Below the pieces are notes generated by a model that worked only from the letters and a program-made list of their open reading frames with translations, did no database searches and had not been told where the DNA came from. A stretch of DNA of 29,345 bases from a virus: IMG/VR virus record IMGVR_UViG_3300009086_000072, positions 1 to 29,345 of that record; one strand, given 5' to 3'. Of the stretch, positions 172 through 26,000 are shown one piece after another. Position 1 is the stretch's first letter. Each line of letters begins with the position of its first letter. The translations under genes were made by a program, and so were the position numbers.

Positions 172-179
172 TATAAATA
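172..179 (+). promoter_or_regulatory. T4-type late promoter box upstream of the gp48-like gene
   Basis: An exact TATAAATA lies 35 nt before the ATG at 215. The predicted start near 185 would leave a leader of about 30 nt containing the ribosome binding site AGAGGA (205-210). The box faces the oppositely oriented box at 197-204, so the two promoters overlap in footprint and their transcripts would overlap by a few bases at their 5' ends. Confidence 0.75.
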
Positions 180-196
180 AAGTTATATTAAATAGT

Positions 197-204
197 TATT
201 TATA
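197..204 (-). promoter_or_regulatory. T4-type late promoter box for the leftward gp4-like gene
   Basis: The minus strand reads TATAAATA here, an exact match to the T4 late promoter -10 element recognised by gp55-containing RNA polymerase. In T4 the start site lies about six nt past the box, which would be near position 191 and leave a leader of about 39 nt before the ATG at 152. This is the only TATAAATA I found on the minus strand of the window, and it sits upstream of the only minus-strand gene. Confidence 0.75.
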
Positions 205-11100: not shown

Positions 11101-11266
11101 AGAAGAAAATGATTACTTTAACCTTAAAGGCGATTCATATTATACCAGCAGCAAAAAATTTAACATGAATCAAAAGATAGAACAATTTGAAGGTCAAACC
11201 ATCGAATCAAACAATATAAATAATATAAATACATTTAACATTAATTCTTTTATAGACATAGAATAG
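8189..11266 (+). CDS. 7: gp7-like baseplate wedge protein with inserted beta-rich modules
   Basis: This 1025-residue protein sits between gp6 and gp8, as in T4, and has the length of T4 gp7 (1032), the elongated wedge protein that links the inner ring to the periphery. Conserved-looking helical parts are EILEDSGDAGIKLLLEKYYE (about 32-51), a middle region with LYKRILDFYKVRGSSDSVEMFF (about 320-340), and RLVHPAGFIFFG (about 418-430). Inserted around these are non-T4 modules: a beta domain at about 95-195 (FTVTLANIN to SNQIKLSNSI), a jelly-roll-like domain at about 619-773 (LFRVSGWYNTQG, YFDIEFRANDA), and four repeats of the G.GY....P.VTI type at about 538-570, 832-850, 884-914 and 921-942. The C-terminus is very rich in Asn and Ile where two promoter boxes are embedded. 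Start: GGTTAAGAT before ATG 8189. Confidence 0.82.
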   Translation: MAEINSPGYIETIASSRRKTKENLKVDQLIPSEILEDSGDAGIKLLLEKYYEFMNISEFIYDQDESYTDLVLDSKAIFRIDDPNLANNKFFSDYHGTSSSLKLTSTTGQLPVPFTVTLANINNADYTITVAEQSANQMPAGTIVQYKSSNAPISGLANNATYFVVYNSSNQIKLSNSISGSPIQIADTAAPGTHTIEGISNTISYPLERSNIFISNGNELPGSLGSKREVDDDTEEGLALGKTFQVAGLRGLNGLAAELTTPVKNWVGPGPSYTLNAIEDAMDIDKNSDPSIDPTNQYLEMMQKEIAEAIPRSQAGLSVNKSTLYKRILDFYKVRGSSDSVEMFFRLLFDEEVEVSKPYDDTLIPSSGNWDESTNQFVSRKGFVSDSKIRLHDNYRYQKYSYLIKSGLNKTTWDQVYSRLVHPAGFIFFGEISILLQAIREKLRTPDGSLSDNNKEVIEKIKNLSTGFFVDQLIRAYPRTNRLALSSMPGIQPGIVGVEDLPFLIEAIASVFEPSIKAYINQTAQVSPVIDSSGNLTAVVVSRTGSGYTSAPSITITDSSSGSTATATALLNNLGGIESVNSITGDTTGYNPNTASAAVGTLAAGTGKIGKIAINAQTRHFDDLLNLYNEAPGTASNNVGWTNVDASDSSGNPPPSGSVYLSFMEGATQFTGDDHRTNLEPGQLFRVSGWYNTQGNAGAMSLALRGGATTGAAALIGAIGIPAFPAGQDWTYFDIEFRANDAVDYWHLAVDRHTAYANDRLRLSEVNWSMVDAPSLPGNKLYNTPPTITIGPPTATDADGKLLPLGTDANNPNIRIQAAAKFLLEPTGVQYIKITNPGSGYDLDTTEVEVSEPAYPTTYIEANEPYYAVTEAYPVVNPQGQVDGILIARPGRGHIEPPTVTITGTGTGATAEALLYPSEITAVEITNPGQGYQFNPRIKVNSSMIDRTRVREVLYKLIIPLNHINDGSAIIEENDYFNLKGDSYYTSSKKFNMNQKIEQFEGQTIESNNINNINTFNINSFIDIE
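11215..11231 (+). promoter_or_regulatory. Tandem late promoter boxes upstream of gp8
   Basis: Two exact TATAAATA boxes lie 9 nt apart (11215-11222 and 11224-11231) within the last codons of the gp7-like gene. The second ends 44 nt before the gp8 ATG, and predicted starts near 11228 and 11237 give leaders of about 40-48 nt that include the AGGG ribosome binding site at 11266-11269. The coding triplets here spell an Asn/Ile/Thr-rich tail (NNINNINTFNINSF), so the protein end may have been shaped by the promoter sequence. Confidence 0.62.
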
Positions 11267-11275
11267 GGCACTAAA

Positions 11276-12727
11276 ATGGCAGCAATTATTACTACACCTT
11301 TCAGAAAACTCAATGCTGAGAATTTTAAAAGTGATGTAGCCGATGTTACAAACAATAGTGTGTATCTGGCCATCGGTAAAGCTGATGCTTGGTCTCTTAG
11401 TACATCTGATGACTCTGATACGACACCGTTTGTACCTGGCGATCACATCGACAGCATTAACGAAGCACACCAAAACATACTCGGCATGCAAAAAATCGCA
11501 GCAGGCGATATTACACACGTTGTGCCAAGAGAAGATTACGAAGACGGCAAAACATTTGTAGCTTGGGATTCAAATGATTCAGATATATTCGATAAACCTT
11601 TTTATTGCTTAACTGATGAATTTAAAGTTTATAAGTGCATTAAAGCAGGCCCTGGGATTACCTCTAAGCGTCCTGCTCATACAGTCGAAACACCACAATA
11701 TCAACCAGAAGATGGCTATACATGGAAATATATGTTCACCATCATTACAGAAGATGCTGAAAAGTTTTTAACTAATTCATTTATTCCAGTTAAAACTCTT
11801 CCAATGGTTATTAGTGCATCTAATGTAGCAAGCATTGATAGTGCTGTAATACCTGGAACATCAAGTAACTTTCCACAAGCAGAATCACAAGCTAACTCAT
11901 ACAACTTAAATGTTAGCGGTAACGGTGCTGGTGGTATTGAGAGAATTGAAGTAACTAACGGCGGGACTGGTTATACTTCTACTCCTACGGTTACAATTAA
12001 TGGAGATGGAACTGGTGCTACAGTAGCTAGTGCTAACGTAACTCGAGTCAATGGCTCGATAACCGCCATTACACTAGAAAACATCGGTAGACATTATACT
12101 ATTACTGATATAACTATAAGTGGTGGCGGTGGCACAAGCGCTACAGCTCGAGCTGTTATTTCTCCGTTGAATGGACATGGAACAGATCCAGTATCAGAGC
12201 TAGGTGCTTTCTATATTGCACTTAATGCTCAACTAGTAGGTGCTGGTAATTCAGACTTTGACTTAACCGTAGGTAATGACTTTAGACAAATAGCTATTAT
12301 TAAGAACCCGCAAGCTGATGGAGCTAAAGTTACTGCTGGTGACGTATCTGTTCTTAGTGGAACAACAATAGCAAGCTCTGATTTATTAAGCGGTTTAAAA
12401 GTACTAACCATGAATGATGATGTAACCAACCGCTATATAGCAGATGACGTGATTTCAACTAGCAGTGGTGTTAAGGCTTTTGTAGCAAGGGTAAATACTA
12501 CTAACTCAACAATATTGTATTATCAAAATTCTAAGACTGGTTACAAGGAATTTCAAATCGGTGACACTGTAGAATCAGATAATAATACTGGCGGTAGGAC
12601 TATAACAGCAATTGATACTCCGGATTTTGTAAAAGGTACCGGTGATATGATTTTCTTAGAAAATAGAAATCCTGTTAATAGAACTACATCGCAAACCGAA
12701 GATATTAAATGCATCATTGAATTTTAA
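11276..12727 (+). CDS. 8: gp8 baseplate wedge subunit with beta-repeat insertion
   Basis: At 483 residues this is longer than T4 gp8 (334), the dimeric wedge protein that binds gp7 and gp10. The family pattern is clear at both ends: VYLAIGKADAW (about 26-36), VVPREDYEDG, F..KPFYCL and YKCIKAG in the first domain, DGYTWKYMFTI (about 145-155), FRQIAIIKNPQADGA (about 335-349) and the end GTGDMIFLENRNP followed by QTEDIKCIIEF. The extra length is one block at about 211-302 with two repeats (GGTGYTSTPTVTINGDGTGA and a degenerate second copy ending GGGGTSATARAVI), and a further one at about 350-450 with FQIGDTVESDNNTGGRT. The first insert uses the same repeat type as the gp7-like protein next door, so the two may interact through it. 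Tandem late promoters lie just upstream. Confidence 0.93.
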   Translation: MAAIITTPFRKLNAENFKSDVADVTNNSVYLAIGKADAWSLSTSDDSDTTPFVPGDHIDSINEAHQNILGMQKIAAGDITHVVPREDYEDGKTFVAWDSNDSDIFDKPFYCLTDEFKVYKCIKAGPGITSKRPAHTVETPQYQPEDGYTWKYMFTIITEDAEKFLTNSFIPVKTLPMVISASNVASIDSAVIPGTSSNFPQAESQANSYNLNVSGNGAGGIERIEVTNGGTGYTSTPTVTINGDGTGATVASANVTRVNGSITAITLENIGRHYTITDITISGGGGTSATARAVISPLNGHGTDPVSELGAFYIALNAQLVGAGNSDFDLTVGNDFRQIAIIKNPQADGAKVTAGDVSVLSGTTIASSDLLSGLKVLTMNDDVTNRYIADDVISTSSGVKAFVARVNTTNSTILYYQNSKTGYKEFQIGDTVESDNNTGGRTITAIDTPDFVKGTGDMIFLENRNPVNRTTSQTEDIKCIIEF

Positions 12728-12739
12728 GAGAGAAGATAA

Positions 12740-15700
12740 ATGGCTATTACCAACGTAAATAATCTAGAGGGTACTACTTACACGCTTGATGATTTTGATG
12801 AATCTAAAAATTATCAGCGAATACTATTTAAGCCAGGCTTTGCGGTACAGGCTAGAGAACTTACTCAATTGCAAACAGCGCTTCAGGCTCAAATTGATAA
12901 GCTTGGGCAATACACATTTGCTGATGGCGATAGAGTATTAGCTGGTAAGCTGTCTGTAAACGTAGCCTATGATTATGTAAAGTTAGATGGTCCAGTAAGC
13001 GGTTTAAGCGATTTTGTTGGAACCATTATTACTGGAGGATCCACTGGAGTAACTGCTGAAGTAATTCATGCAGTGGCTGGTGATAGTAATGTTCAAGTGT
13101 TAACACCTACACCATCTGAGTCTAATGTAAGCGAAACATTAGTTGATACTCTTTATATAAAATACACAAATTCTGGCACTGATTCCATAACTAAAGTGTT
13201 TGCAACAGGCGAAAACATTGTTTCAAGTGCTGGTAAAACCGCTAGCGTCGCACCTAATACTATTCCTAATATTACTGGAATTGGTTCGGCTGCGTCTATT
13301 TCAGAAGGTGTTTATTTTATTGCTGGTAATTTCGTATATGTTGAAAGTGAAACCATTATTTTAGATCATTATATTAACACTCCAAATTATATAGTAGGCC
13401 TTAGAGTTGCAGAAACCTTAGTGTCTTCCTCTGACGATACAAGTTTACAAGATAACGCTAATAACACAACTAACGCTGCGGCACCAGGCGGTGATCGATA
13501 CAAGATTGACACCACACTAATTAAGCAAAATCTTCCAGCTCTTGATGAATCGGTTCCAGGCGTTAGCGATGCGACTTATATAGCACCGGTCAATGAGTAT
13601 ATTCATTTAGTTAGTATTAGAAATGGTGTAGTAATTAAGAAAGATGAAGCTCCAATAGACACTGAGTTATCAGATAGATTAGAAAGACGTACTAAAGAAG
13701 AATCAGGCGATTACGTTTTAGCGCCGTTTATCCTAGACATTAAAGAGCATTTAAACGACGGAGTAAGTAACAATGGTTATTTGCTGGTAGGAGACGGAGG
13801 AGATGCTGATAAGCTTGCAATAGGTGTTGACCCATCTACCGCATACATCGACGGCCGAAGAATTGAAAAAACAGCATCCGAACAGTTAATTGTCGATAAG
13901 CCAAGATTAGCAACTGATGAGTTTCTTGCAGGTGATTCATCTATTACAGTGGGTTATGGAAATTACTTCAAATTAAACGCCTCAGCTATGGTTGGAGTTC
14001 CAGACATAAAAGATTTTACTACAATTAATCTTAAAGATGGTGGTGTTAATGGTACTACTGTTGGCACTTGTCGAGCTCGTGATTTTAGGTTTAATGGTAC
14101 AGACTTTGAACTATACGTATTTGATCTAGTAATGAATGCAGGTCAAGATATTGGTACAGTTGATGCAGTCTCTGATGGCACGTTTGAAGCAACCTTGGCT
14201 GTTGTTGGTAAGCGATTCGACGCTGGTAGAACTAATTTGGTATTTCCTCTTCCAGCTACGGCGGTATCTTCGGTAGAAGATGGTAATAACCGATTAGATA
14301 TGACAATGCGCGCATATTGTGTTGGTACAATTTCAGGCAGTGCGACAGATTCTAATGGTAAAAAGCTAAGTATAACCCCTCCATCTGGCACTACACTAGC
14401 TGATCTTAATAATATTATTATTGGAGATGGAACCAACGATACGCAAAGAATTAATGTTGCGGCTGGTAGTACTCTTACTTCAATATATTCAGCAGATCAC
14501 GTTAATGCAAATACTACGGTAGGGTTAAATCAATATGCTGGTGGTACAATAACCGTTATAGCTAATATTGCTGGCACTAACATGTCAAGAAGAACTAAAA
14601 CCCTAGAGCGAAAAAGAACTGGCGGTAGCGGTGGTGCATCAGGGGTTCAGTTTACATTTAGCACTGACTCTACAATAACAGCAGGTGAATCTTACTCTCT
14701 TGGGGTACCTGACGTATTCAGCCTATTAAGCGTAAAGGACCAAAATAATAATCAAGCCAACGACGTTACTGATAGATTCATTTTAGATACTGGACAACGT
14801 GATGGTTTTTATGACGTAAGTCGACTTATTCTAAAGGGTGGTGAAACTCTAAAACCTAGTCATACGTACTACGTAGAATTTGACTACTATGAACATGGAA
14901 GCGGAGATTATTTTTCAGTAGATTCTTATCCAGATTATGCAGATATTCCATCTTATAATAACATTTCTCTTAGAGATGCTATAGACTTTAGACCTACAAA
15001 AAACAATAATGGAGTTGGATTTCAACAAGGACCGCAGACTGGAATGCCACCAGCATTTGCTGTTGGTTCGGTACCGCTGTCCCACTGGATGCCGAGATTA
15101 GATAAAATATTCTTAACTAAAGAAGGCAAGTTTAAAGTAATTAAAGGCCAGGCTTCTAGATATCCAGTAGAGCCAGAAAATATTGAAAATGCATTGCATC
15201 TATATACATTACGTCTAAACCCATATGTATTTGGCGTACACGATGTCATAGTAACACCTATTGACAATAGAAGATATACTATGAGAGATATTGGTGCACT
15301 TGATCAACGAGTCAAAAATCTTGAATACTATACTTCACTCTCACTGCTAGAAAGAAGTGCTTCTGAGGCACAAATTCTAGATAGCAATGGTAATCAAAGA
15401 TTTAAAAACGGATTTATTGTTGACGGATTCTTTGGACATAACGTAGGTGATAGCGGTAATCCGGATTATGGTGTTTCTATAGATAAATCTAACGGCATAT
15501 TGCGACCACAGTTCGATGAAAGAAATATTAACCTAATTAAAAAGCCAGGGAATAACGGTACTACTACAATACACAACGGCGGTGTTGTTACTCTACCATA
15601 TACCACTGTAACAGAAATTAATCAGCCTTTATCATCTTACGCGGAGTTTGTAAACCCATACAATGTTATAAGCTGGGCTGGTACTATGGTCATATCACCC

Positions 15701-18169
15701 GAATCAGATGAATGGAAAGAGACCGACCAGCGCCCAGATATTATTATTGATGATAATTCACAATATGAACAAATGTTAGCATTGGCCGATTCAGACGGTA
15801 TTTTAGGAACAGTTTGGAACGAATGGGAAACAAACTGGACTGGTGTAGAATATCTTACCACATCAACCGAACGAATTACAGGAATAAGCCAGGCAGAAGG
15901 CGTTCGCTTAACTGGTGTTGCAAATAACACGGGTAAAAAACTGGCCAAAGTTGATAAGAAAACTCAAGCAATTACTAATACCGGTACAAAGGATCGTGAC
16001 GGCATACAAAAATATTTAACCGGTCAGGTGGATATTCAATCTAAAGAGGTTGGAAATTTTGTTGTAGAAACAAACTTTATACCTTTCATGCGATCGCGTA
16101 AAGTATACTTTAAGGCAGAATTATTAAAACCTGATACTAAATTTTATGCTTTCTTTAATGGAGTCAATGTTACCTCGTACTGTAAAGAAGAAGCTTATAC
16201 TGAGTTTCATGATCGAACTGGAGTTACTACTTACAATGGGGCCACTTCTCATGATAATGCGACTGGTGGGTCTGGCGGTGGAGTACTTACAACTGATGCT
16301 TCTGGTAAAGTTGAAGGATCATTTATTATACCAAACACAACTTCATTAAGCTTTAAAACTGGTACTAGAGAATTTAAGTTAACAGATGACGGTACTAATA
16401 ACGATGACGAGTCAACTTCTAAAGTATCTCAAAACTTCCACGCTCAAGGGCTACTAGAGATTTATCAAAGAACTATTATTAATACAAAGGTTCCTAGAAT
16501 TGCTACTAGAGAAGTTAACCAATCAGAGTCTATTCGCGATGATGCTGGTAGTCGAGTAGTACACGAATTAGTCGAATACTACGATCCAATTGCTGAAACG
16601 TTTGTAATTAAAACTGAGGGTGGTGTATTTACTACCGGAATAGATTTATTCTTTAATAAAATTGACGCAAATATTCCAGTTCAAGTTTCTTTAAGGGAAG
16701 TTCAAAACGGATATCCTACTCAGAGAATCATTCCTGGCGCAGATGCTATTGTATATCCATCATATATTGCTTCACAAGCAAGCACTACGGTTGCTGATTT
16801 TGCTAATGCTAATGCTAGCATTGCAACTCCTATTACCTGGGATTATCCAGTACATCTAAAAGATGGCACAGAATATGCAGTTGTTATTATTTCTATGTCA
16901 GATAAGTACAAGGTTTACGTAGCAGAGACAAGTGAATTTGATTTAACCGACACTACTAAGAGAATTACCAAGCAACCATACGATGGTGTATTCTTTACTT
17001 CTGCTAACGCTTCAACCTGGACAGCTGAGCAAAGTAAAGATCTTAAATTTAAATTGAAGCGCGCATCGTTTAGCTCGAGTGCCACATTGAACCTAATTAA
17101 CGATAAAGTCCCAGATAAAAAGCTAGGATTAAATCCACTATTATTTGAGGATAATAGCGGCAGCAACGGTGCGGCACGAATTAAAGTATTCCATAAAAAT
17201 CATGGTATGTATGGTACTGGACATACTGTTAAAATATCAGGCCTACCAGGCAGTAGTATTAACGGTGTTCAGGTTAGTGCTATTCAGGGTAGCGCAGTGC
17301 ATGTTGTAATAGACCCCGAATTAGATTCATACTACATAGAAATTCCGTCAGAAACTATTACTACTGCAGATAGAGGAACTCGTGCTGGTGGAACTGAGGT
17401 ATATGCCTCTGAAAATCAAATGTACGATCTGTTAAGAATCAACTCTGCTAGCATTGAATTTCCACAAGCAGAAATTGAATATAGTATGGAAGGAAAGACT
17501 GCGAGGTCTATGGACGCACATGCTGGTTTAGATAACCAAAGCGTATCAAGTATAGGGAGAGTTTTAGCTAATAAGAATATCGAATTTAATGTTCCTCATC
17601 TAATTGCGTCAGAGCAAAATGAAGCAATTGATCAAGGAACTAGTAATAGAATTAAAACGTTTGATTTAACTTGTAGCTTTACTAGTGAGTTAGAAAACTT
17701 AACGCCGATCATAGATCTTAATAGAACTTCATTATTTACTATACAAAATAGAATTAACGACGCATCTGCTAATTCAACCGAATATACTACCCGTGGCACG
17801 TATGTACCAGAGACTGTTGGTACTAACACTAGTAACACTGCTAAGTATATAACTAAACAGGTTGAACTACAGACTGAAGGCACCGTATTAGATGTGTATA
17901 TTAATGCTAATAAGCCTAGACATTCTAATATCGATGTATACTATAAAACAACTTCTGATTCTGATGCTGATTTTGATGCACTAGGATGGACACTGTTAAC
18001 ACCAGACGAAACTATCCCAACCAATGATAACGAAGTTTATAGCGAAGTGCATTATGAAAATTCGGCGTTGCAGCCGTTTAGTAAATTCCAAATTAAAATT
18101 GTATTAAGAAGTCAGAGTAGTACTAACATTCCTACAGTAAAAGACTTTAGAGCTATAGCGACGACATAA
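12740..18169 (+). CDS. DUF4815-type large virion structural protein (baseplate periphery/fibre)
   Basis: A 1809-residue protein of the type annotated as DUF4815 in T4-like marine phages. The N-terminus carries FDESKNYQRILFKPGFAVQA followed by RELTQLQTALQ and GDRVLAGKLSVNVAYDYVKL. Small modules follow (VGTIITGGSTGVTAEV at about 92-107; GENIVSSAGKTASV at about 156-169). The central block has NRRYTMRDIGALDQRVKNLE, ISPESDEWKETDQRPDIII (about 984-1002) and GTVWNEWETNWTGVEYL (about 1023-1039). Then FIPFMRSRKVYFKAELLKPD and FFNGVNVTSYC (about 1114-1148), and YDPIAETFVIKTEGGVFTTG, PVQVSLREVQNGYPTQRIIP (about 1280-1330), blocks shared by many large fibre proteins. The gene follows gp8, where T4 has peripheral baseplate genes 9-12, so a role as fibre attachment or peripheral baseplate component fits; T4 gp10 equivalence is not shown. 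Start: AGAGAGAAG before ATG 12740. Confidence 0.78.
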   Translation: MAITNVNNLEGTTYTLDDFDESKNYQRILFKPGFAVQARELTQLQTALQAQIDKLGQYTFADGDRVLAGKLSVNVAYDYVKLDGPVSGLSDFVGTIITGGSTGVTAEVIHAVAGDSNVQVLTPTPSESNVSETLVDTLYIKYTNSGTDSITKVFATGENIVSSAGKTASVAPNTIPNITGIGSAASISEGVYFIAGNFVYVESETIILDHYINTPNYIVGLRVAETLVSSSDDTSLQDNANNTTNAAAPGGDRYKIDTTLIKQNLPALDESVPGVSDATYIAPVNEYIHLVSIRNGVVIKKDEAPIDTELSDRLERRTKEESGDYVLAPFILDIKEHLNDGVSNNGYLLVGDGGDADKLAIGVDPSTAYIDGRRIEKTASEQLIVDKPRLATDEFLAGDSSITVGYGNYFKLNASAMVGVPDIKDFTTINLKDGGVNGTTVGTCRARDFRFNGTDFELYVFDLVMNAGQDIGTVDAVSDGTFEATLAVVGKRFDAGRTNLVFPLPATAVSSVEDGNNRLDMTMRAYCVGTISGSATDSNGKKLSITPPSGTTLADLNNIIIGDGTNDTQRINVAAGSTLTSIYSADHVNANTTVGLNQYAGGTITVIANIAGTNMSRRTKTLERKRTGGSGGASGVQFTFSTDSTITAGESYSLGVPDVFSLLSVKDQNNNQANDVTDRFILDTGQRDGFYDVSRLILKGGETLKPSHTYYVEFDYYEHGSGDYFSVDSYPDYADIPSYNNISLRDAIDFRPTKNNNGVGFQQGPQTGMPPAFAVGSVPLSHWMPRLDKIFLTKEGKFKVIKGQASRYPVEPENIENALHLYTLRLNPYVFGVHDVIVTPIDNRRYTMRDIGALDQRVKNLEYYTSLSLLERSASEAQILDSNGNQRFKNGFIVDGFFGHNVGDSGNPDYGVSIDKSNGILRPQFDERNINLIKKPGNNGTTTIHNGGVVTLPYTTVTEINQPLSSYAEFVNPYNVISWAGTMVISPESDEWKETDQRPDIIIDDNSQYEQMLALADSDGILGTVWNEWETNWTGVEYLTTSTERITGISQAEGVRLTGVANNTGKKLAKVDKKTQAITNTGTKDRDGIQKYLTGQVDIQSKEVGNFVVETNFIPFMRSRKVYFKAELLKPDTKFYAFFNGVNVTSYCKEEAYTEFHDRTGVTTYNGATSHDNATGGSGGGVLTTDASGKVEGSFIIPNTTSLSFKTGTREFKLTDDGTNNDDESTSKVSQNFHAQGLLEIYQRTIINTKVPRIATREVNQSESIRDDAGSRVVHELVEYYDPIAETFVIKTEGGVFTTGIDLFFNKIDANIPVQVSLREVQNGYPTQRIIPGADAIVYPSYIASQASTTVADFANANASIATPITWDYPVHLKDGTEYAVVIISMSDKYKVYVAETSEFDLTDTTKRITKQPYDGVFFTSANASTWTAEQSKDLKFKLKRASFSSSATLNLINDKVPDKKLGLNPLLFEDNSGSNGAARIKVFHKNHGMYGTGHTVKISGLPGSSINGVQVSAIQGSAVHVVIDPELDSYYIEIPSETITTADRGTRAGGTEVYASENQMYDLLRINSASIEFPQAEIEYSMEGKTARSMDAHAGLDNQSVSSIGRVLANKNIEFNVPHLIASEQNEAIDQGTSNRIKTFDLTCSFTSELENLTPIIDLNRTSLFTIQNRINDASANSTEYTTRGTYVPETVGTNTSNTAKYITKQVELQTEGTVLDVYINANKPRHSNIDVYYKTTSDSDADFDALGWTLLTPDETIPTNDNEVYSEVHYENSALQPFSKFQIKIVLRSQSSTNIPTVKDFRAIATT

Positions 18170-18369
18170 TGCCAACTATAAAAATAAAAGATAATTTGCA
18201 TTTGATGCGCGATATGTCTAGTCAAGCTATTATAAATAATAACAATACTGCATATCAACAGAGATTAAAACAAATTGAGCGTAGTGATCAAAAGGAAAAT
18301 GAGATAGCTGGTATAAAAGCCGATTTAGCTGAAATTAAAGAACTATTAAAGAACTTAGGTGGTAACTAA
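18169..18369 (+). CDS. Small coiled-coil protein linking two fibre genes
   Basis: A 66-residue protein. The first half holds KIKDNLHLMRDMSSQAIINN, a pattern I have seen in short proteins next to fibre genes of marine T4-like phages. The second half is a charged helix with heptad spacing (IERSDQKENEIAGIKADLAEIKELLKNL, residues about 36-63), suggesting a short coiled coil. No membrane segment or signal peptide. Its ATG shares the last base of the preceding stop (TAATG), and its own TAA shares a base with the start of the 2543-residue fibre gene, so the three genes form a coupled unit. No good Shine-Dalgarno is visible upstream of it, consistent with coupling. A role as a joint or oligomerisation peptide between baseplate protein and fibre is inference. 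Confidence 0.75.
   Translation: MPTIKIKDNLHLMRDMSSQAIINNNNTAYQQRLKQIERSDQKENEIAGIKADLAEIKELLKNLGGN
18231..18238 (+). promoter_or_regulatory. Possible late promoter box upstream of the giant fibre gene
   Basis: An exact TATAAATA occurs inside the 66-residue gene, 130 nt before the start of the 2543-residue fibre gene. Its predicted transcript would begin near 18244 and so would omit the start of the small gene. The distance is longer than at the other sites and the box lies within an Ile/Asn-coding stretch, so this may be a chance match. Confidence 0.3.
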
Positions 18370-21300
18370 TGGCCAACAATGAAATTAAAACTTTAAAAAC
18401 TAATACCTTTGAAGAGTGGAGACTAAATACTAATATAGTCTCACAGGATTTAGGTGCTATCGATGAATTGAGTAGCAATATCACATCTAGCGTATATACC
18501 CTGTCTAACACATCCGGATCTTCAATTAATAGAGTATTAGTTACTCCTTCAACTACTACTAGCGTATTACCAGCTTTAAAAGATTCTAGAATTGATAATA
18601 TTGCTGGATGGATTGTTTTAAGAGATACTAGTGATTTTGAATCTAGCACAAGCTTAGCATCAATTGCCTCTGGTGATACGATTACTCAAAGCGATGGTAG
18701 CGTTACCACATACACAGCTGAAGTCGTAAGTGTATCAACTCTACATAATAAACCTAAGATTTTGGTTACTAACTCTACTGGTTCTTTTAATGTTGGTTAT
18801 GACATTTTAGAGTCTGGCGCTACTGTAATTGAATCACAAGATGTCCTAAGGCTTATTTCTGAAAGCTATCATAGAGCTCGTGTTAGAGTATCTAATGGCT
18901 CAACTGTCATTACTGAAGGTTTAGGCGCTGATCAATTTCATTTTCCAACAATTGTTGGTGGAATTACTTTAGCAACCGGCCTCGATTTAACCTATTATAC
19001 TGAAGGAACTATAATATATCAAACTGCTGACCCAGCCGATTCATTTACTACGCTTCAAGATATAGAATCTACTGCTACTTGGTATGCTACGGTTTATCAC
19101 GCTGACACTAGTTCTGATGTTCTTTACCTAAAGGGATACACTGGCACATATGATAGCGCTAGGGATATTAAAATAATAAATCATCTAGCTGATACAATTG
19201 ATTCAAATAATCATACGACTTTAATTAATTATAGAGATAGCGACAATGCATTTGCTATCAGATTTAATTCTGCTCAAACTCATTTGAACAACACTGATAT
19301 TACACTAAGCTATACTGATACAGTTGATGCTCTTAATGAATTGCAAAGCGATATTGGTGTTACGGAAAATCTTACGACAGCAGCTAATGACTTAACATCA
19401 GCTGTTAATGAACACGAAGACGATTTATATACTTCTACAACTGGCTCATTCGATGGCTTAACGTCAAAACATTTTAAAGGCGCTGTAGAAGAGTTAAGAG
19501 ATGAGTTAGGTAATCATGCTTCTCTAACCACTAATACTACGACGGATGCTGTAAGCGCTATTAATGAATTAGAGGGCGTTATTAATACAGATAACACTGC
19601 TAGAACTAATTATGATTTAAATACTAATACTCATAACATTGTTTCAGCTGTAAATGAATTTGAAGGATTTTTGAGATCTGACACTTCGGCTAGAACTAAT
19701 TATACTTTATCGACAGCATCGTTCAACGTTGAAGGTGCGATCAATGAATTAGATGCTCAGATTGGAGCAGCGGCTGACGGAACCATAACCTTTGGTCAAT
19801 CCGGTCCAGCTGATGGTACTAATGCTACTACGATTATGCAAGCGGTAAATTCCATTGATCAAGCAGTTGGTGATACCTATACTAGTGGAACCGAATATGC
19901 AATTGCAGCTGGTTCTACTATCGCAGAAAAAATTGGTAATTTATACGAAGATATTCATACTGCTAATGGTGAAACATTAAATACAGATGCTAATTTCTTA
20001 GTGGGTGGCATCAATGAACTAGAGACTGCATTGCGCGGGTCGGGAGCCACTTATACAGGCTTTACTGATAACTCATTTATTTCATCTACCAATATTAGAG
20101 ATGCTGTTAATGAGATTGGTGTTTCTTTAGGGTCAGGTGCTGTAACTGGTTCAGTTCCAATTAGCACTGCATCAACTGCAGAGTGGCTAAATTATAGTAC
20201 AGCATTCGATTTAGATTCAGATGGCGTATCTAAGGGTGCTAATGTTGTAGAGGTACTGGCTGAATCACTTAGTTTAGCTAATGTTGTCGCTACGATTGAT
20301 TCAGTTACTGGAAATATTACATTAGAACCCAATACTTCGCTGTATGATACTGGAAATAGTACACTATACCAAGATGGAAACGATGGTAACGCGTTTGTAG
20401 AGTCAGATGTATATCTAGAAAATACTTCGTATGTAGGCGGAATTGTAAATTTAGCAGGTGATGTTACTACTAATGATATTCATACTCGATATGAGGTTTC
20501 GGCCTTTATTAAAGTAGTAGATAGAAACGCTGGTTACAATCTGGTAGGAACCATATCTTCAGTCACCTTAAATACTGGAACATTTACAGTTACTAAAACT
20601 ATACCGGAAAATAATCCTGGCACAGATTATATGGTGCAATTAGGACTTTCAATAAAAGGTAAAAACGCTAATGCTAGTGGATCACTAACTTTAGGTTCTG
20701 TGGAAATTGAAGACTTTGTTGCTACAGTATCAACTGCAGAATTTGCTCAAACAGAAGCAGCAGGAGCCACTAATCTTACCAACGCTGTAACACTATTAAA
20801 TTCAGCTTTAGGTGATTCTGATTCTTATAACGATGGATTTTATGGTTCATCTACAGTAGCTGGAACTCTAGATAAACTTCAAGCTGGTGTGATAGGAAAC
20901 GATGACAATATTAATGACTTAGCACAACTAATTGATGGAGATAGACCTGGAACAATTAATCTTACAGGAGTTGATACTGCTAATCTAGATGGCACGTTTA
21001 CTACTGTCGGCAATACTCTTTATCAAGAAAATAATTCTGTTATTACATTTCAGGGTAGAGTAGAATCAGTTCCAAGCGGTACCAAAATTATTCTTAATAG
21101 CATTATTGGTACATTTACTCCTACGCTTCCACTAAAAAGTGGTAATCTTGAGATAGACACTAATAAGTTGGTAGGAATGGACTTAGTAGATACTGCGACT
21201 GTCTTTACAGGATTAACAGCGAATAATATAAAAGGCGCAGTGCAAGAGATTGCTGATACTACGCTAGCGGCTGGATCTGGTTTAACTGGTGGTGGTAATT

Positions 21301-24300
21301 TACAAGCCAATAGAACCTTTGATGTTGGAGCAGGTGATGGTATTACTGTTAATGCTGATGATATTCAAGTAGACACTACTGTTCTTAGAACTAGTACTAC
21401 CGATGGCCAAACTGTTACACAAGATATAAATTTTGGTCAAGGCAATTTAACTTTAGGCGATGCTGGAAAAACTTTATTAATTAGACCATTTAATACTCTG
21501 GATGTTCAAGGTAACCTACAAATTGGTGGCGCGACAGGTAGTACATTAACATATAAAACATCCTTCTTCGAAGTAGCTGGTGAAACTACCACACAGGGTA
21601 TTAGCATTGATCGTACCTCAATGAATGTTGGTAATATTCCAGCATTTAATGCCGCTAATGAGAGAGACGATGGAACATTTGCTCCGATCATCGATGAAAA
21701 TATTTTACCAAAAATACAGTGGAACGAAGGTCGAGTTGTAGATGGAAGTAGTGCGTATGACCCTCATAGAGCATGGCAAACAGTTGCTATTAAGCGCAAC
21801 GACAATGATGACGGATGGGATCCAGTTACTTCAGATATTGTAACGTACTATAATGCAAAGGATTTAATTGAAGGCAATACGGAAGTTGGAGTAAATGCTA
21901 CATGGGACGCTAATGGCCAACACTTTAATTTTTCTCTTACTGATAGTGGCGTAACAGCTGCTACTTACGGAAGTCAAACAGAACTACCAGCTCTTACAGT
22001 TGATCGATATGGTCGGGTGACATCAGCAACAACTGTACCCATTACGACTACTCTTGAACTAGAAGATGACGATGGTAGCGTACAATATATTAACTTAACT
22101 TCAGATACTTTAAAAATTTCTGGTAAAGCTAATCAGCTTAAAGCGGATACTAACACTGAGCTCCACACCGATGGTAACTTTGTTGTGGGCCAAGTTTATA
22201 GAGTAGTTAATGCTGATGTATCAACAGATTGGAATTATGTTGCTGGTACAAGCGGTACTGCATATGTAGCTGGTATGGAGTTTACAGCTGCAGAAGTCGG
22301 TAGTGCAAGTCTTGGTTCTGGTACAGCTGATACTGTAACTGATACAATTACCCTTGGATTTATCGATGACGGCAACGCTGTACAGATTCCACTAGTAGAT
22401 ATTACAAATATTAACCAGTCAACCGGAACTGGAACTGGTGCGCTGACTGTACAGGGCGGTGCTAGTGTTGCTAAGAATCTACATGTAGGCGGTGACTTAG
22501 TTGTACATGGAACTAATACAGTTTTAAATACTGAAACATTAACGGTTGACGACAATATAATTGTATTACATGATGATAAAACAGGAGCTGTTGTTGCTAA
22601 TGAAACTTCTGGAATTGAAGTTGAACGTGGTGATTCAAGCAATGTGCGGTTGAGATGGAACGAAGGTATTCGACCAGCCGCAATAGACGATCCCAGCAAC
22701 CCCGGGCAACAATTACCAGCTATTCCTGGTTCTTGGCAGGTAACTGTAGATGGTACAAACTATCATAACATTATTACCGAAGACACTGACTACGATTTCT
22801 GGACATTAAAGGCTACTAGCCAGAGTGGTGGCGATAACAGTGGAGTAAATGTACTTACAGACAATGTTGTTGACTTTAAAACCTCCACCACTGATAGTGT
22901 TACTGGATTAACGATTGATCGTACTGGTAAGACTATAACTTATTCGCATGCTGATACTTCTTCAATAAGCGGTAGCTTTGGATCATATACTGCATCTACC
23001 TTAAACGCTGGGTCAGCAATAACATCTATAGAAGTTGATGGATTAGGACACACTACGTCTATTACATCAGTTGACTTCGACGATAGATATTTGCAAACAT
23101 TTGGTGTTCAAGATGGTGACGGCGACAATCTTGATATTGGCGCGCATCCATGGCAATTTGCGGAAGACAATACTAACGGTACTGCTAATAGCGATGATGG
23201 TGCTACAGTTAGTATAGATTGGACACAAACTTCGGCCGATGATGCAGCTGTACCATATAAATTATCATTTGCTGTAAGCAATACTGATAAAGGCTCATCT
23301 CAAAAATTCTTTAGAACAATTAATGTTTTTGATGCGCATGCCGCTACAGCCGTAGATGAAACGGTTCAAGCTGAGATTAATGAAGATACTGTAAGGTTTG
23401 AAACAGCTAATGCAGGTTTAGCACTTACTGGTACTACAGGCGCAGGAGCTACTGGTGATACAGTAACCTTTGCAAATACTGATAGAGGTTCAAGTCAACC
23501 TATATTTAAATCAATTTTAACTAATAATGTTCAGCAAGCACCTGGTACTAATGCTGTTATTTTGGCATCAAAGAATAGTAAAGTGTTTCAAATTGTATCA
23601 CCAGGTAATACAAAGTGGTCTAATATAGTACTTGGAGATGCGCAATCGGTTAGTGATAATCTAACGACGAGTGAGCAAACTACGCTAGCCTCAAGCGGAT
23701 TAACTCTACATACTCCAGGTTCAGCTGCATCTCGTAGCTCATACGGCTCGGCTGGAGATGTTTTTACAGTTGGTGCTGCATTAGCCCAAGCGAGTGTTAG
23801 TGGTACTACCGGAACTGTTAGATTTGCTGATCCTGAGTCAAATGGATTAGTCTATGATGGTTCATTTGTAGTCGGTAGTAAATATAGGATTGCGATTTTA
23901 GGGCAAACAGTTTGGAATACAATTGCTGGCACTACTGGCGTAAATTATGAAGTTGGCGACATTATAGATGCCGTTAACGTGGGCACAATAAGAGCGCACG
24001 ATAACTCAGGCATAGGCCAATTGTTATCAACCAACCATCAGACAATAAGTAGTGAAGTTAATAACGATTCATTTGGATTTATTGGTAATAATAACGGTGT
24101 TGTTGTCAGCACCTCGGGTAATGACGATAATAATTTCATTGATATTAGCCACGCCAATACTTCGGATGTGACAGATAGAGGTACAGTACTTAAGGAATTT
24201 ATCTCGGGGCTAACGTTTGATCAATTTGGTCATACAGTTGGTTTTCAAACTCAAGCTGAAAGCGATGGTACTCTAACTTTAAATGGAGGTACTGCACTTC

Positions 24301-26000
24301 AAATTGCTACCGCTAATAACGCTAATAAATTTGATGCAGATGCTTCTTCAGATAAAACTATTACTATTAATCATGATGTTATACCTACAACATTTAGTAA
24401 TAATGCTGACGCCACGCGAGATTCCATATCATTAAGTTTAGACAGAAATAGCTTTGTACAAAACACAGCAGCCAGTCAAACCCCTGGTGAGAGTGATGCG
24501 AATGATCTTAGATCTGATAACCACGGTCTTTTGGTTGGTGATAAAGTTTCGTTTACTATTAACTCTGGCCAATTAAATGGCGGTGGACTTATTAGTGGTG
24601 ACCAATATTATGTTAGATGGGTAAGTGCGGATGGAAATTATTTCCAATTAGCTTCTACTAACCGTGGAACAAGAATATCAATAACTGATAATTCTGGCAC
24701 TCAAACTAGTAATGTTACTGCTACAATCGCTATGGTGAAACCTGTTGCGAGTCCTACTTCAACAATTAGTACAAATAGTACCTCAGGAGCTCCTGGTACG
24801 CTGATGGCGGTTACCGGACTTGATAGAGATAGCCAAGGTCATATTAATAAAGCGCTAACAACTGAATTTACTCTTCCAAATTATTCATGGACAATAAACG
24901 ACGATGGTTCTAATTCACATGTAGTTAGACCAGGTAGTAGTTCTCTTACCATAAACACAACTGAACCTGCAACTTCTACTGGTTGTTCAATGAGTGCTAC
25001 ACTAACTGGATCTACCTTAAACCTTGTTGCGACTAATACCGATAAGGGTTCGTCACAGAACATCTTTAAGAAAGTTACATTGGGCCTATCTTCTGATTAT
25101 ACTAATAATTGGAATGGACCTACAGCTTCTGCTGAACTTAAAACAATTACAGCGCAAAATAACAATGACACAATAGTACTTGCGCAAGGCTTTGGTATTA
25201 ATTTAGATGTTAGTGGAGCCACTGATGATGTAATCAGAATCGAAAACTCGGCACCTAACCAAGCTACTAACTTAAGCGTATCTACTACTACCAGTAATGT
25301 CACGGTTGCATCAAGTGACGGCACCGATGCTGTGTTAGCTGCAGCATCTTCAACAGCGGCTGGGGTAATGACTTCTGTATCGCATAACAAATTAGCTGGC
25401 TTAGGCGATAACGAACAAGCTACAAGTAACACCGGCACAATCACGGGTGTTAGTTCTGGAACTGGCCTAAGTGGTGGTGCTACTTCTGGTGCTCCTACTC
25501 TTAGCTTAAACACTGATCAAAGATTCACCTCAGGAAACAGTGTATATGCTGGTAACACCCATGAATATATCTTGTTTGCCAAAAGCGGCTATATGAGATT
25601 TCAGGTGCATAACGCGTATGCTGCGAAGCTAACTAGCTTGGGGCACTTAATTGTTGCGGATAACATTACAGCGTATGGCCATAATCAGTTATCTGATAGA
25701 AACCTTAAAGAAAATATTGAAAAGGTCGACGGTGCTCTAGAATTAGTATCTCAATTAGAGGGTGTTACATTTAATTGGAAAAAAAATGGCAAGGAAGCAG
25801 CTGGTGTTATTGCTCAAGAAGTTGAAAAGGTATTACCATCCGCTGTCAGTGATGTAGAAACACTAGATGAAACTGAACACAAGGTGGTAGACTATAACCA
25901 ACTTTCAGCACTCTTTATCGAATCGATTAAAGAACTTAAAGAAGAAAATAAACGATTAAGAGCTGACATTGAACAACTGAAACTTATAAATAATAAGTAA
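18369..26000 (+). CDS. Giant tail fibre/adhesin with C-terminal S74 self-cleaving chaperone
   Basis: The largest gene: 2543 residues. Residues 1-115 probably attach the fibre (KTNTFEEWRLNTNIVSQDLG). Residues about 316-470 and further copies to about 960 repeat an A.NELE helix motif (ALNELQSDIG, AINELEGVI, AVNEFEGFL, AINELDAQIG), suggesting a trimeric shaft of short coiled coils between beta segments. A module at about 1392-1432 (LTVDDNIIVLHDD, GIEVERGDSSNVRLRWNE) is common in fibres. FVVG..YR modules at about 1275 and 1833 and the motif NTD(K/R)GSSQ at 1638, 1703 and 2223 are internal repeats. The end is a peptidase S74 intramolecular chaperone: S2442DRNLKENI with S2442 and K2447 as the predicted Ser-Lys pair, FNWKKNGKEAAGVIAQEVEKV, and a terminal coiled coil. 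Cleavage before S2442 would free 102 residues after trimerisation. AGGTGGT precedes the start. Confidence 0.9.
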   Translation: MANNEIKTLKTNTFEEWRLNTNIVSQDLGAIDELSSNITSSVYTLSNTSGSSINRVLVTPSTTTSVLPALKDSRIDNIAGWIVLRDTSDFESSTSLASIASGDTITQSDGSVTTYTAEVVSVSTLHNKPKILVTNSTGSFNVGYDILESGATVIESQDVLRLISESYHRARVRVSNGSTVITEGLGADQFHFPTIVGGITLATGLDLTYYTEGTIIYQTADPADSFTTLQDIESTATWYATVYHADTSSDVLYLKGYTGTYDSARDIKIINHLADTIDSNNHTTLINYRDSDNAFAIRFNSAQTHLNNTDITLSYTDTVDALNELQSDIGVTENLTTAANDLTSAVNEHEDDLYTSTTGSFDGLTSKHFKGAVEELRDELGNHASLTTNTTTDAVSAINELEGVINTDNTARTNYDLNTNTHNIVSAVNEFEGFLRSDTSARTNYTLSTASFNVEGAINELDAQIGAAADGTITFGQSGPADGTNATTIMQAVNSIDQAVGDTYTSGTEYAIAAGSTIAEKIGNLYEDIHTANGETLNTDANFLVGGINELETALRGSGATYTGFTDNSFISSTNIRDAVNEIGVSLGSGAVTGSVPISTASTAEWLNYSTAFDLDSDGVSKGANVVEVLAESLSLANVVATIDSVTGNITLEPNTSLYDTGNSTLYQDGNDGNAFVESDVYLENTSYVGGIVNLAGDVTTNDIHTRYEVSAFIKVVDRNAGYNLVGTISSVTLNTGTFTVTKTIPENNPGTDYMVQLGLSIKGKNANASGSLTLGSVEIEDFVATVSTAEFAQTEAAGATNLTNAVTLLNSALGDSDSYNDGFYGSSTVAGTLDKLQAGVIGNDDNINDLAQLIDGDRPGTINLTGVDTANLDGTFTTVGNTLYQENNSVITFQGRVESVPSGTKIILNSIIGTFTPTLPLKSGNLEIDTNKLVGMDLVDTATVFTGLTANNIKGAVQEIADTTLAAGSGLTGGGNLQANRTFDVGAGDGITVNADDIQVDTTVLRTSTTDGQTVTQDINFGQGNLTLGDAGKTLLIRPFNTLDVQGNLQIGGATGSTLTYKTSFFEVAGETTTQGISIDRTSMNVGNIPAFNAANERDDGTFAPIIDENILPKIQWNEGRVVDGSSAYDPHRAWQTVAIKRNDNDDGWDPVTSDIVTYYNAKDLIEGNTEVGVNATWDANGQHFNFSLTDSGVTAATYGSQTELPALTVDRYGRVTSATTVPITTTLELEDDDGSVQYINLTSDTLKISGKANQLKADTNTELHTDGNFVVGQVYRVVNADVSTDWNYVAGTSGTAYVAGMEFTAAEVGSASLGSGTADTVTDTITLGFIDDGNAVQIPLVDITNINQSTGTGTGALTVQGGASVAKNLHVGGDLVVHGTNTVLNTETLTVDDNIIVLHDDKTGAVVANETSGIEVERGDSSNVRLRWNEGIRPAAIDDPSNPGQQLPAIPGSWQVTVDGTNYHNIITEDTDYDFWTLKATSQSGGDNSGVNVLTDNVVDFKTSTTDSVTGLTIDRTGKTITYSHADTSSISGSFGSYTASTLNAGSAITSIEVDGLGHTTSITSVDFDDRYLQTFGVQDGDGDNLDIGAHPWQFAEDNTNGTANSDDGATVSIDWTQTSADDAAVPYKLSFAVSNTDKGSSQKFFRTINVFDAHAATAVDETVQAEINEDTVRFETANAGLALTGTTGAGATGDTVTFANTDRGSSQPIFKSILTNNVQQAPGTNAVILASKNSKVFQIVSPGNTKWSNIVLGDAQSVSDNLTTSEQTTLASSGLTLHTPGSAASRSSYGSAGDVFTVGAALAQASVSGTTGTVRFADPESNGLVYDGSFVVGSKYRIAILGQTVWNTIAGTTGVNYEVGDIIDAVNVGTIRAHDNSGIGQLLSTNHQTISSEVNNDSFGFIGNNNGVVVSTSGNDDNNFIDISHANTSDVTDRGTVLKEFISGLTFDQFGHTVGFQTQAESDGTLTLNGGTALQIATANNANKFDADASSDKTITINHDVIPTTFSNNADATRDSISLSLDRNSFVQNTAASQTPGESDANDLRSDNHGLLVGDKVSFTINSGQLNGGGLISGDQYYVRWVSADGNYFQLASTNRGTRISITDNSGTQTSNVTATIAMVKPVASPTSTISTNSTSGAPGTLMAVTGLDRDSQGHINKALTTEFTLPNYSWTINDDGSNSHVVRPGSSSLTINTTEPATSTGCSMSATLTGSTLNLVATNTDKGSSQNIFKKVTLGLSSDYTNNWNGPTASAELKTITAQNNNDTIVLAQGFGINLDVSGATDDVIRIENSAPNQATNLSVSTTTSNVTVASSDGTDAVLAAASSTAAGVMTSVSHNKLAGLGDNEQATSNTGTITGVSSGTGLSGGATSGAPTLSLNTDQRFTSGNSVYAGNTHEYILFAKSGYMRFQVHNAYAAKLTSLGHLIVADNITAYGHNQLSDRNLKENIEKVDGALELVSQLEGVTFNWKKNGKEAAGVIAQEVEKVLPSAVSDVETLDETEHKVVDYNQLSALFIESIKELKEENKRLRADIEQLKLINNK
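25985..25992 (+). promoter_or_regulatory. Late promoter box upstream of the small fibre-module genes
   Basis: An exact TATAAATA lies in the last codons of the fibre gene, 22 nt before the ATG at 26015. The predicted start near 25998 gives a leader of about 17 nt that still contains the AGGA ribosome binding site (26003-26006). Its position between the giant fibre and a set of smaller genes is what a separate late transcription unit would need. Confidence 0.6.

Follow-up and report, generated by a model that had tools for sequence, protein, structure and literature searches.

At the left end of a 29,345-base virus record (the window, i.e. the whole stretch of DNA analysed here), two late promoter boxes point towards each other between two genes that point apart. 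The question raised by this locus is whether such a pair is a coincidence or a conserved promoter unit, and what its geometry would mean for expression of the two flanking genes.

The gp4-like/gp48-like junction

The left end of the window is a divergent junction. On the minus strand lies a gp4-like head-closure gene (1-152, start codon at 152-150; phrog_218, E 2.7e-19), of which the window holds the first 50 codons, its full length being 148 amino acids on locus L002. Its neighbour on the plus strand is a gp48-like baseplate tail-tube-cap gene (215-1033; phrog_230, E 1.3e-42), the first of the rightward tail genes, followed in the same direction by gp53-, hub/lysozyme-, wedge- and tail-type genes. 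Within the 62 bp separating the two start codons, exact copies of the box TATAAATA were found at 172-179 on the plus strand, for the gp48-like gene, and at 197-204 on the minus strand, for the gp4-like gene, facing each other across 17 bp; the box coordinates, the facing orientation and the identity of the flanking genes were thus as given in the original prediction. Judged by the T4-type late-promoter criterion, an 8-bp TATAAATA box in which the first T may vary, the match is exact on both strands of the junction, and 15 of the 17 positions downstream of the plus-strand box (180-196) are A/T, the AT-rich stretch expected of a T4-type late promoter. In the accessible part of PMC1524935 the T4 late box is placed at -13 to -6 relative to the start, a rule that predicts +1 sites at 185 (+) and 191 (-), the same positions as proposed originally, with a predicted 5'-end overlap of 7 nt (185-191). 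The predicted leaders, 30 nt on the plus strand and 38 nt for gp4, leave room for a start and a ribosome site. Shine-Dalgarno-like sequences are located at 205-210 (+, AGAGGA) for the gp48-like gene, directly adjoining the minus-strand box, and at 159-165 (-, GGAAAGG) for the gp4-like gene. Together with one flanking base per side, the two boxes form a perfect 10-bp inverted repeat with arms at 171-180 and 196-205.

Genes of the late transcription machinery were identified among the relatives of the window, which is itself a fragment: gp55 (phrog_234) and gp45 (phrog_223) in 5 of 12 IMG/VR relatives, including all five of at least 97 kb, gp33 (phrog_254) in 11 of the 12, and each of the three in all four named phages tested. 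According to the accessible portion of a review, not all listed T4 late sites have been proven active in vivo (PMC2988020). Chance might bring two AT-rich octamers together in an AT-rich gap. Exact TATAAATA occurs in the window eight times on the plus strand and once on the minus strand, at 197-204, and since these nine boxes compare with 5.5 expected under a Markov model of the window, a lone box means little; a face-to-face pair, in contrast, is expected only 0.003 times under this model. When 24 marine loci of at least 15 kb were pooled, ATAAATA proved the most enriched 7-mer upstream of their ORFs (103 occurrences versus 6.8 expected).

Elsewhere in the window, two tandem TATAAATA boxes (11215-11222 and 11224-11231, starts 9 bp apart) upstream of a wedge-type gene at 11276 look like a doubled late promoter. 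Further to the right lie two very long ORFs, one of 1809 codons (12740-18169) and one of 2543 (18369-26000), the former with a strong match to phrog_358, a family of unknown function.

Conservation of the opposed boxes among related phages

IMG/VR was scanned with gp4, yielding relatives down to 57% identity. A first set of 158 loci, including named phages and copies of the window, comprised 148 with enough upstream DNA and 107 distinct ones; a face-to-face NATAAATA pair with a gap of 6-29 bp was present in 99 of these 107 (among the matches listed). For a second set, gp4 queries from T4, Syn9 and HTVC008M were added and the box was relaxed to [AC]TAAATA. A gp4 match was obtained in 295 of 298 loci, 12 were too short and 178 were distinct; 169 of these were kept because a rightward ORF of 80 codons or more lay close to the gp4 start, and the nine that had none were dropped. 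Among these 169 distinct divergent junctions, 147 carry the boxes face to face (two of them with a back-to-back pair as well), 9 carry them back to back, 12 have one box and one has none, as counted among the matches listed and with near relatives over-sampled, because the loci were found via gp4. The original prediction had pointed to related phages as a check on both the boxes and their spacing; in relatives with the same gene layout both boxes are kept, but the spacing is not conserved, the gap varying over the range given above. Shuffled junction stretches were face to face in 0.41% of 16,900 shuffles. A caveat on the conservation is that in many relatives the plus-strand box overlaps the gp4 start codon (CAT) and so obtains part of its match for free. 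In most relatives the plus-strand box abuts that codon and the minus-strand box adjoins the Shine-Dalgarno sequence of the rightward gene. Four loci (L020, L027, L135 and L140) have, upstream of gp4, a third, inner plus-strand box inside the outer pair, i.e. a nested double rightward promoter.

Twelve long relatives (941,675 bases) contained the face-to-face motif in 11 cases, at the gp4 start only and once with a nested third box, and the back-to-back mirror control in none of the 12. Furthermore, a motif-first test independent of gp4 was performed, in which exact matches to the motif in either orientation, face-to-face or back-to-back, were collected from IMG/VR up to 120 stretches per orientation. 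Of the 120 face-to-face stretches 118 were examined, and 34 of these 118 loci had a gp4 start no more than 110 bp away; among back-to-back loci, whose G+C was the same, this held for 2 of 120 (Fisher p 6e-10, among the matches listed). The other 84 face-to-face loci, among the matches listed, are away from a gp4 start, where the motif arises by chance or in other roles.

The pair is also present in T4, whose gene 4/gene 53 junction consists of TATAAATA, 7 bp and then TATTTATA in face-to-face orientation, and in Merlin, Minot, S16, UTI-K4 and Vettismorki; the box gap is 9 in C48C1 and 20 in MED4-213. In Syn9-type cyanophages the pair persists, its minus-strand box being of a CTAAATA type, a variant which in the accessible part of PMC1524935 is the reported late motif of Aeh1, and the late motif of S-PM2 is given as NATAAATA in the accessible part of PMC2984593. 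In the junction of Vibrio phage YC (L006, 2663-2707), CCTAAGTA and CCTAAGTT stand face to face. Upstream of the counted ORFs of YC no ATAAATA was found, and CTAAGTA (9 versus 0.6) and CTAAGTT (6 versus 0.4) are among the most enriched upstream 7-mers, counts to which the junction itself adds. Judging from this enrichment, CTAAGTA/CTAAGTT is likely the late-promoter motif of YC (Ackermannviridae; L315-L322), replacing TATAAATA, and the two boxes appear to have changed in step, as expected of promoters sharing one sigma.

Not every named phage carries the pair. An exact ATAAATA pair was absent from whole-record scans of Syn9, HTVC008M, S-WAM2 and YC, and the exact face-to-face pair is absent in K446, moki, Fraggle and DLP_6. 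HTVC008M and its relatives have the boxes back to back between gp4 and gp2 and constitute the 9 back-to-back junctions, and Vibrio phage nt-1 looks back-to-back with a longer gap of 69 bp. In the Pelagibacter phage HTVC008M group (L161, 18916-18943; L255-L279) the back-to-back boxes almost touch and the predicted leaders are very short. The genes at the junction run in the same direction in pf16, phiM9 and F372 are without the divergent layout, and the annotated starts overlap in P-TIM40. In Krischvirus MIZ3 (L312, 1-686) the gene next upstream of gp4, on the gp4 strand, is annotated as a homing endonuclease, so that there is neither a divergent gap nor a promoter pair. On the strength of the 147 of 169 junctions, the T4 gene 4/53 pair, the motif-first excess and the motif of YC's own, the opposed gp55-type late promoters at the gp4 junction are very likely real and ancient.

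Start geometry and competing explanations

By sequence, the window pair fits the face-to-face divergent class, with facing promoters, divergent genes and overlapping predicted starts. The boxes would lie towards the two ends of the gap, each within the leader of the gene that the other box serves, with the starts a few bases apart in the middle. The predicted starts are never more than 19 nt apart in the 146 measured junctions (among the matches listed), a geometry from which we infer mutual exclusion: a polymerase opening one promoter would cover the other start, and initiation on a given DNA copy would proceed by turns. One DNA copy thus probably starts only one of the two gene sets at a time; on each copy the neck/head gene to the left and the tail operon to the right would alternate, and the many replicated copies would yield both messages. 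The original proposal that two polymerases could not start here together is in this way supported by the geometry. Its further suggestion of complementary 5' ends stands as a prediction for 141 of 146 junctions (overlap of at least 1 nt, among the matches listed) but fails as a conserved device, the predicted overlap ranging from -4 to +19 nt; with -3 in T4, an antisense 5' overlap serving as such a device was rejected. A fixed-spacing or helical-phase device was likewise rejected, because the gap spans 6-29 without a single value; only in the Syn9 group is the box gap fairly tight (mean 16.6, sd 2.4).

We favour, with good confidence, a reading in which the junction houses a nested pair of gp55-dependent late promoters that face each other and would fire by turns, an old feature of the gene 4 junction that is probably kept by compaction. 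Compaction offers the simplest account: a gap that mostly measures 30-60 bp has to accommodate two promoters as well as two ribosome sites, each box would be pushed into the leader of the other gene, and exclusion would be the price. It stays a reading, because box gap and gap length correlate only moderately (0.47 for the window group and -0.22 for the Syn9 group).

An alternative is that the palindrome acts in RNA, a hairpin hiding the Shine-Dalgarno sequence in read-through RNA while RNA from the late promoter, without one arm, is translated, and this in both directions. Precedents exist in T4. In the accessible parts of PMC2988022 and PMC3014915, the leaders of gene e, I-TevI and segB resemble the present junction in that a late box and its complement form hairpin arms beside a ribosome site and in that the late RNA is without one arm, as would hold at the gp4 junction. 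For segB and I-TevI the hairpin is described as masking the ribosome site in a longer early RNA (PMC2988022, accessible part), and for gene e the effect of the leader hairpin is given as 100-fold (PMC3014915, accessible part). These hairpins serve, in the same accessible parts, one gene on an early or middle polycistronic message, whereas at the gp4 junction the second arm is the promoter of a gene on the opposite strand. Our face-to-face motif search in T4 also recovered the segB leader, the I-TevI leader and the inh/segE junction, the first two thus sharing the motif pattern. The T4 inh/segE junction (L164, T4 111200-112900) is a second face-to-face late-box pair, divergent with a homing endonuclease gene. 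The T4 oriE genes repEA and repEB are on the gene 4 strand.

In RNA from each strand the inverted repeat (171-205) folds into a hairpin, and read-through RNA is predicted to fold with -9.1/-9.2 kcal/mol in the window, -15.5/-13.5 at the T4 4/53 junction and -17.7 (z -4.66) at L172. In each of the 5 loci of the T4 group, the gp4 Shine-Dalgarno sequence is predicted to be more hidden in read-through RNA (unpaired fraction 0.10) than in late RNA (0.55), a shuffled flank giving 0.39. The window, however, folds only weakly better than its shuffles (z -1.73 and -1.48), 12 and 21 of 200 of which fold as well or better. At its own junction (L001) the plus-strand site is unpaired at 0.01 in read-through RNA, 0.50 in late RNA and 0.30 in the null, and the minus-strand site at 0.63 in read-through versus 0.60 in late RNA. 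With the outer flank shuffled, the plus-strand site of the window group is hidden almost equally well (0.24 versus 0.27; minus strand 0.33 versus 0.43). Opposed Shine-Dalgarno sequences are in any case complementary by default. Cyanophage junctions have a folding energy of about -3 kcal/mol and a z score close to 0, and one of their box pairs is mismatched. Because of the outer-flank shuffles and the absence in cyanophages, the hairpin was downgraded as the main function and appears doubtful as the explanation of the pair. In these folding models the case is fair for T4-type phages, where an extra role of the hairpin is plausible, weak for the window and absent in cyanophages.

The exclusion itself might instead be what is selected, fixing the ratio of head-completion to tail-cap output, as the original prediction had envisaged. 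Such balancing would agree with the closeness of the starts in all measured junctions (among the matches listed) and with the HTVC008M group, in which the orientation is flipped and the boxes still almost touch, so that exclusion would persist. Against it, the rightward partner gene swaps between gp48, gp53 (T4-type phages) and gp2 (HTVC008M) while the promoters stay, box gap and predicted overlap vary over the ranges above, and a tiny divergent gap forces exclusion anyway. Since gap, overlap and partner gene all vary, a tuned head/tail-cap ratio is without evidence and seems improbable.

A chance origin of the pair, despite the frequency of single boxes, has a negligible probability, being ruled out by conservation, shuffles and the motif-first scan. 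A plain terminator is unsupported, both terminator-like stems found in 1-1200 lying elsewhere, and sigma-70-like sites in this stretch are at background level (6 found versus 4.0 expected); one sigma-70-like match (9 of 12; 161-189, +) overlaps the junction gap.

Relation to known promoter arrangements

The nested late promoters favoured here share with the T4 late promoters, which use gp55, gp33 and gp45, the TATAAATA box, the dispensability of a -35 element and the service to late structural genes. The likeness extends to the machinery, as relatives of the window encode gp55, gp33 and gp45 and T4 carries the face-to-face pair at gene 4/53. What differs is that two opposed, nested promoters form a conserved unit here, T4 late promoters being usually described singly in the accessible parts of the literature; the T4 promoter lists cited by PMC2988020 may well list both gene 4/53 sites singly. 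In the accessible parts of the literature searched, no description was found of T4-related phages sharing a pair of opposed late promoters at gene 4.

T4 late promoters and late-promoter hairpins are already known, and so, reportedly, are face-to-face divergent promoters in bacteria, argE/argCBH and bioA/bioBFCD, said to have been treated by Beck and Warren in 1988. These two are said to share with the gp4 junction divergent genes, converging starts, overlapping 5' ends and a small shared region. Their promoters are said to be of the sigma-70 type and to enclose the operator of a repressor, whereas the sigma at the gp4 junction is made by the phage.

Tentatively, and with considerable reserve, the gene 4 junction might be an ancient two-way late switch whose palindrome also silences read-through RNA in both directions. 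If this is true, occupancy of one polymerase-sized site would decide, per DNA copy, between the neck/head genes and the tail/baseplate operon, and the switch would have outlasted changes of the partner gene and even of the late-promoter sequence. The layout is kept across T4-type coliphages, cyanophages and uncultured marine phages, which points to a constraint invisible in promoter lists of single genomes. As T4 carries the pair, promoter competition under clamp-activated transcription is testable in a classical model phage. Moreover, in metagenomic contigs the short face-to-face motif is often a marker of the gene 4 junction.
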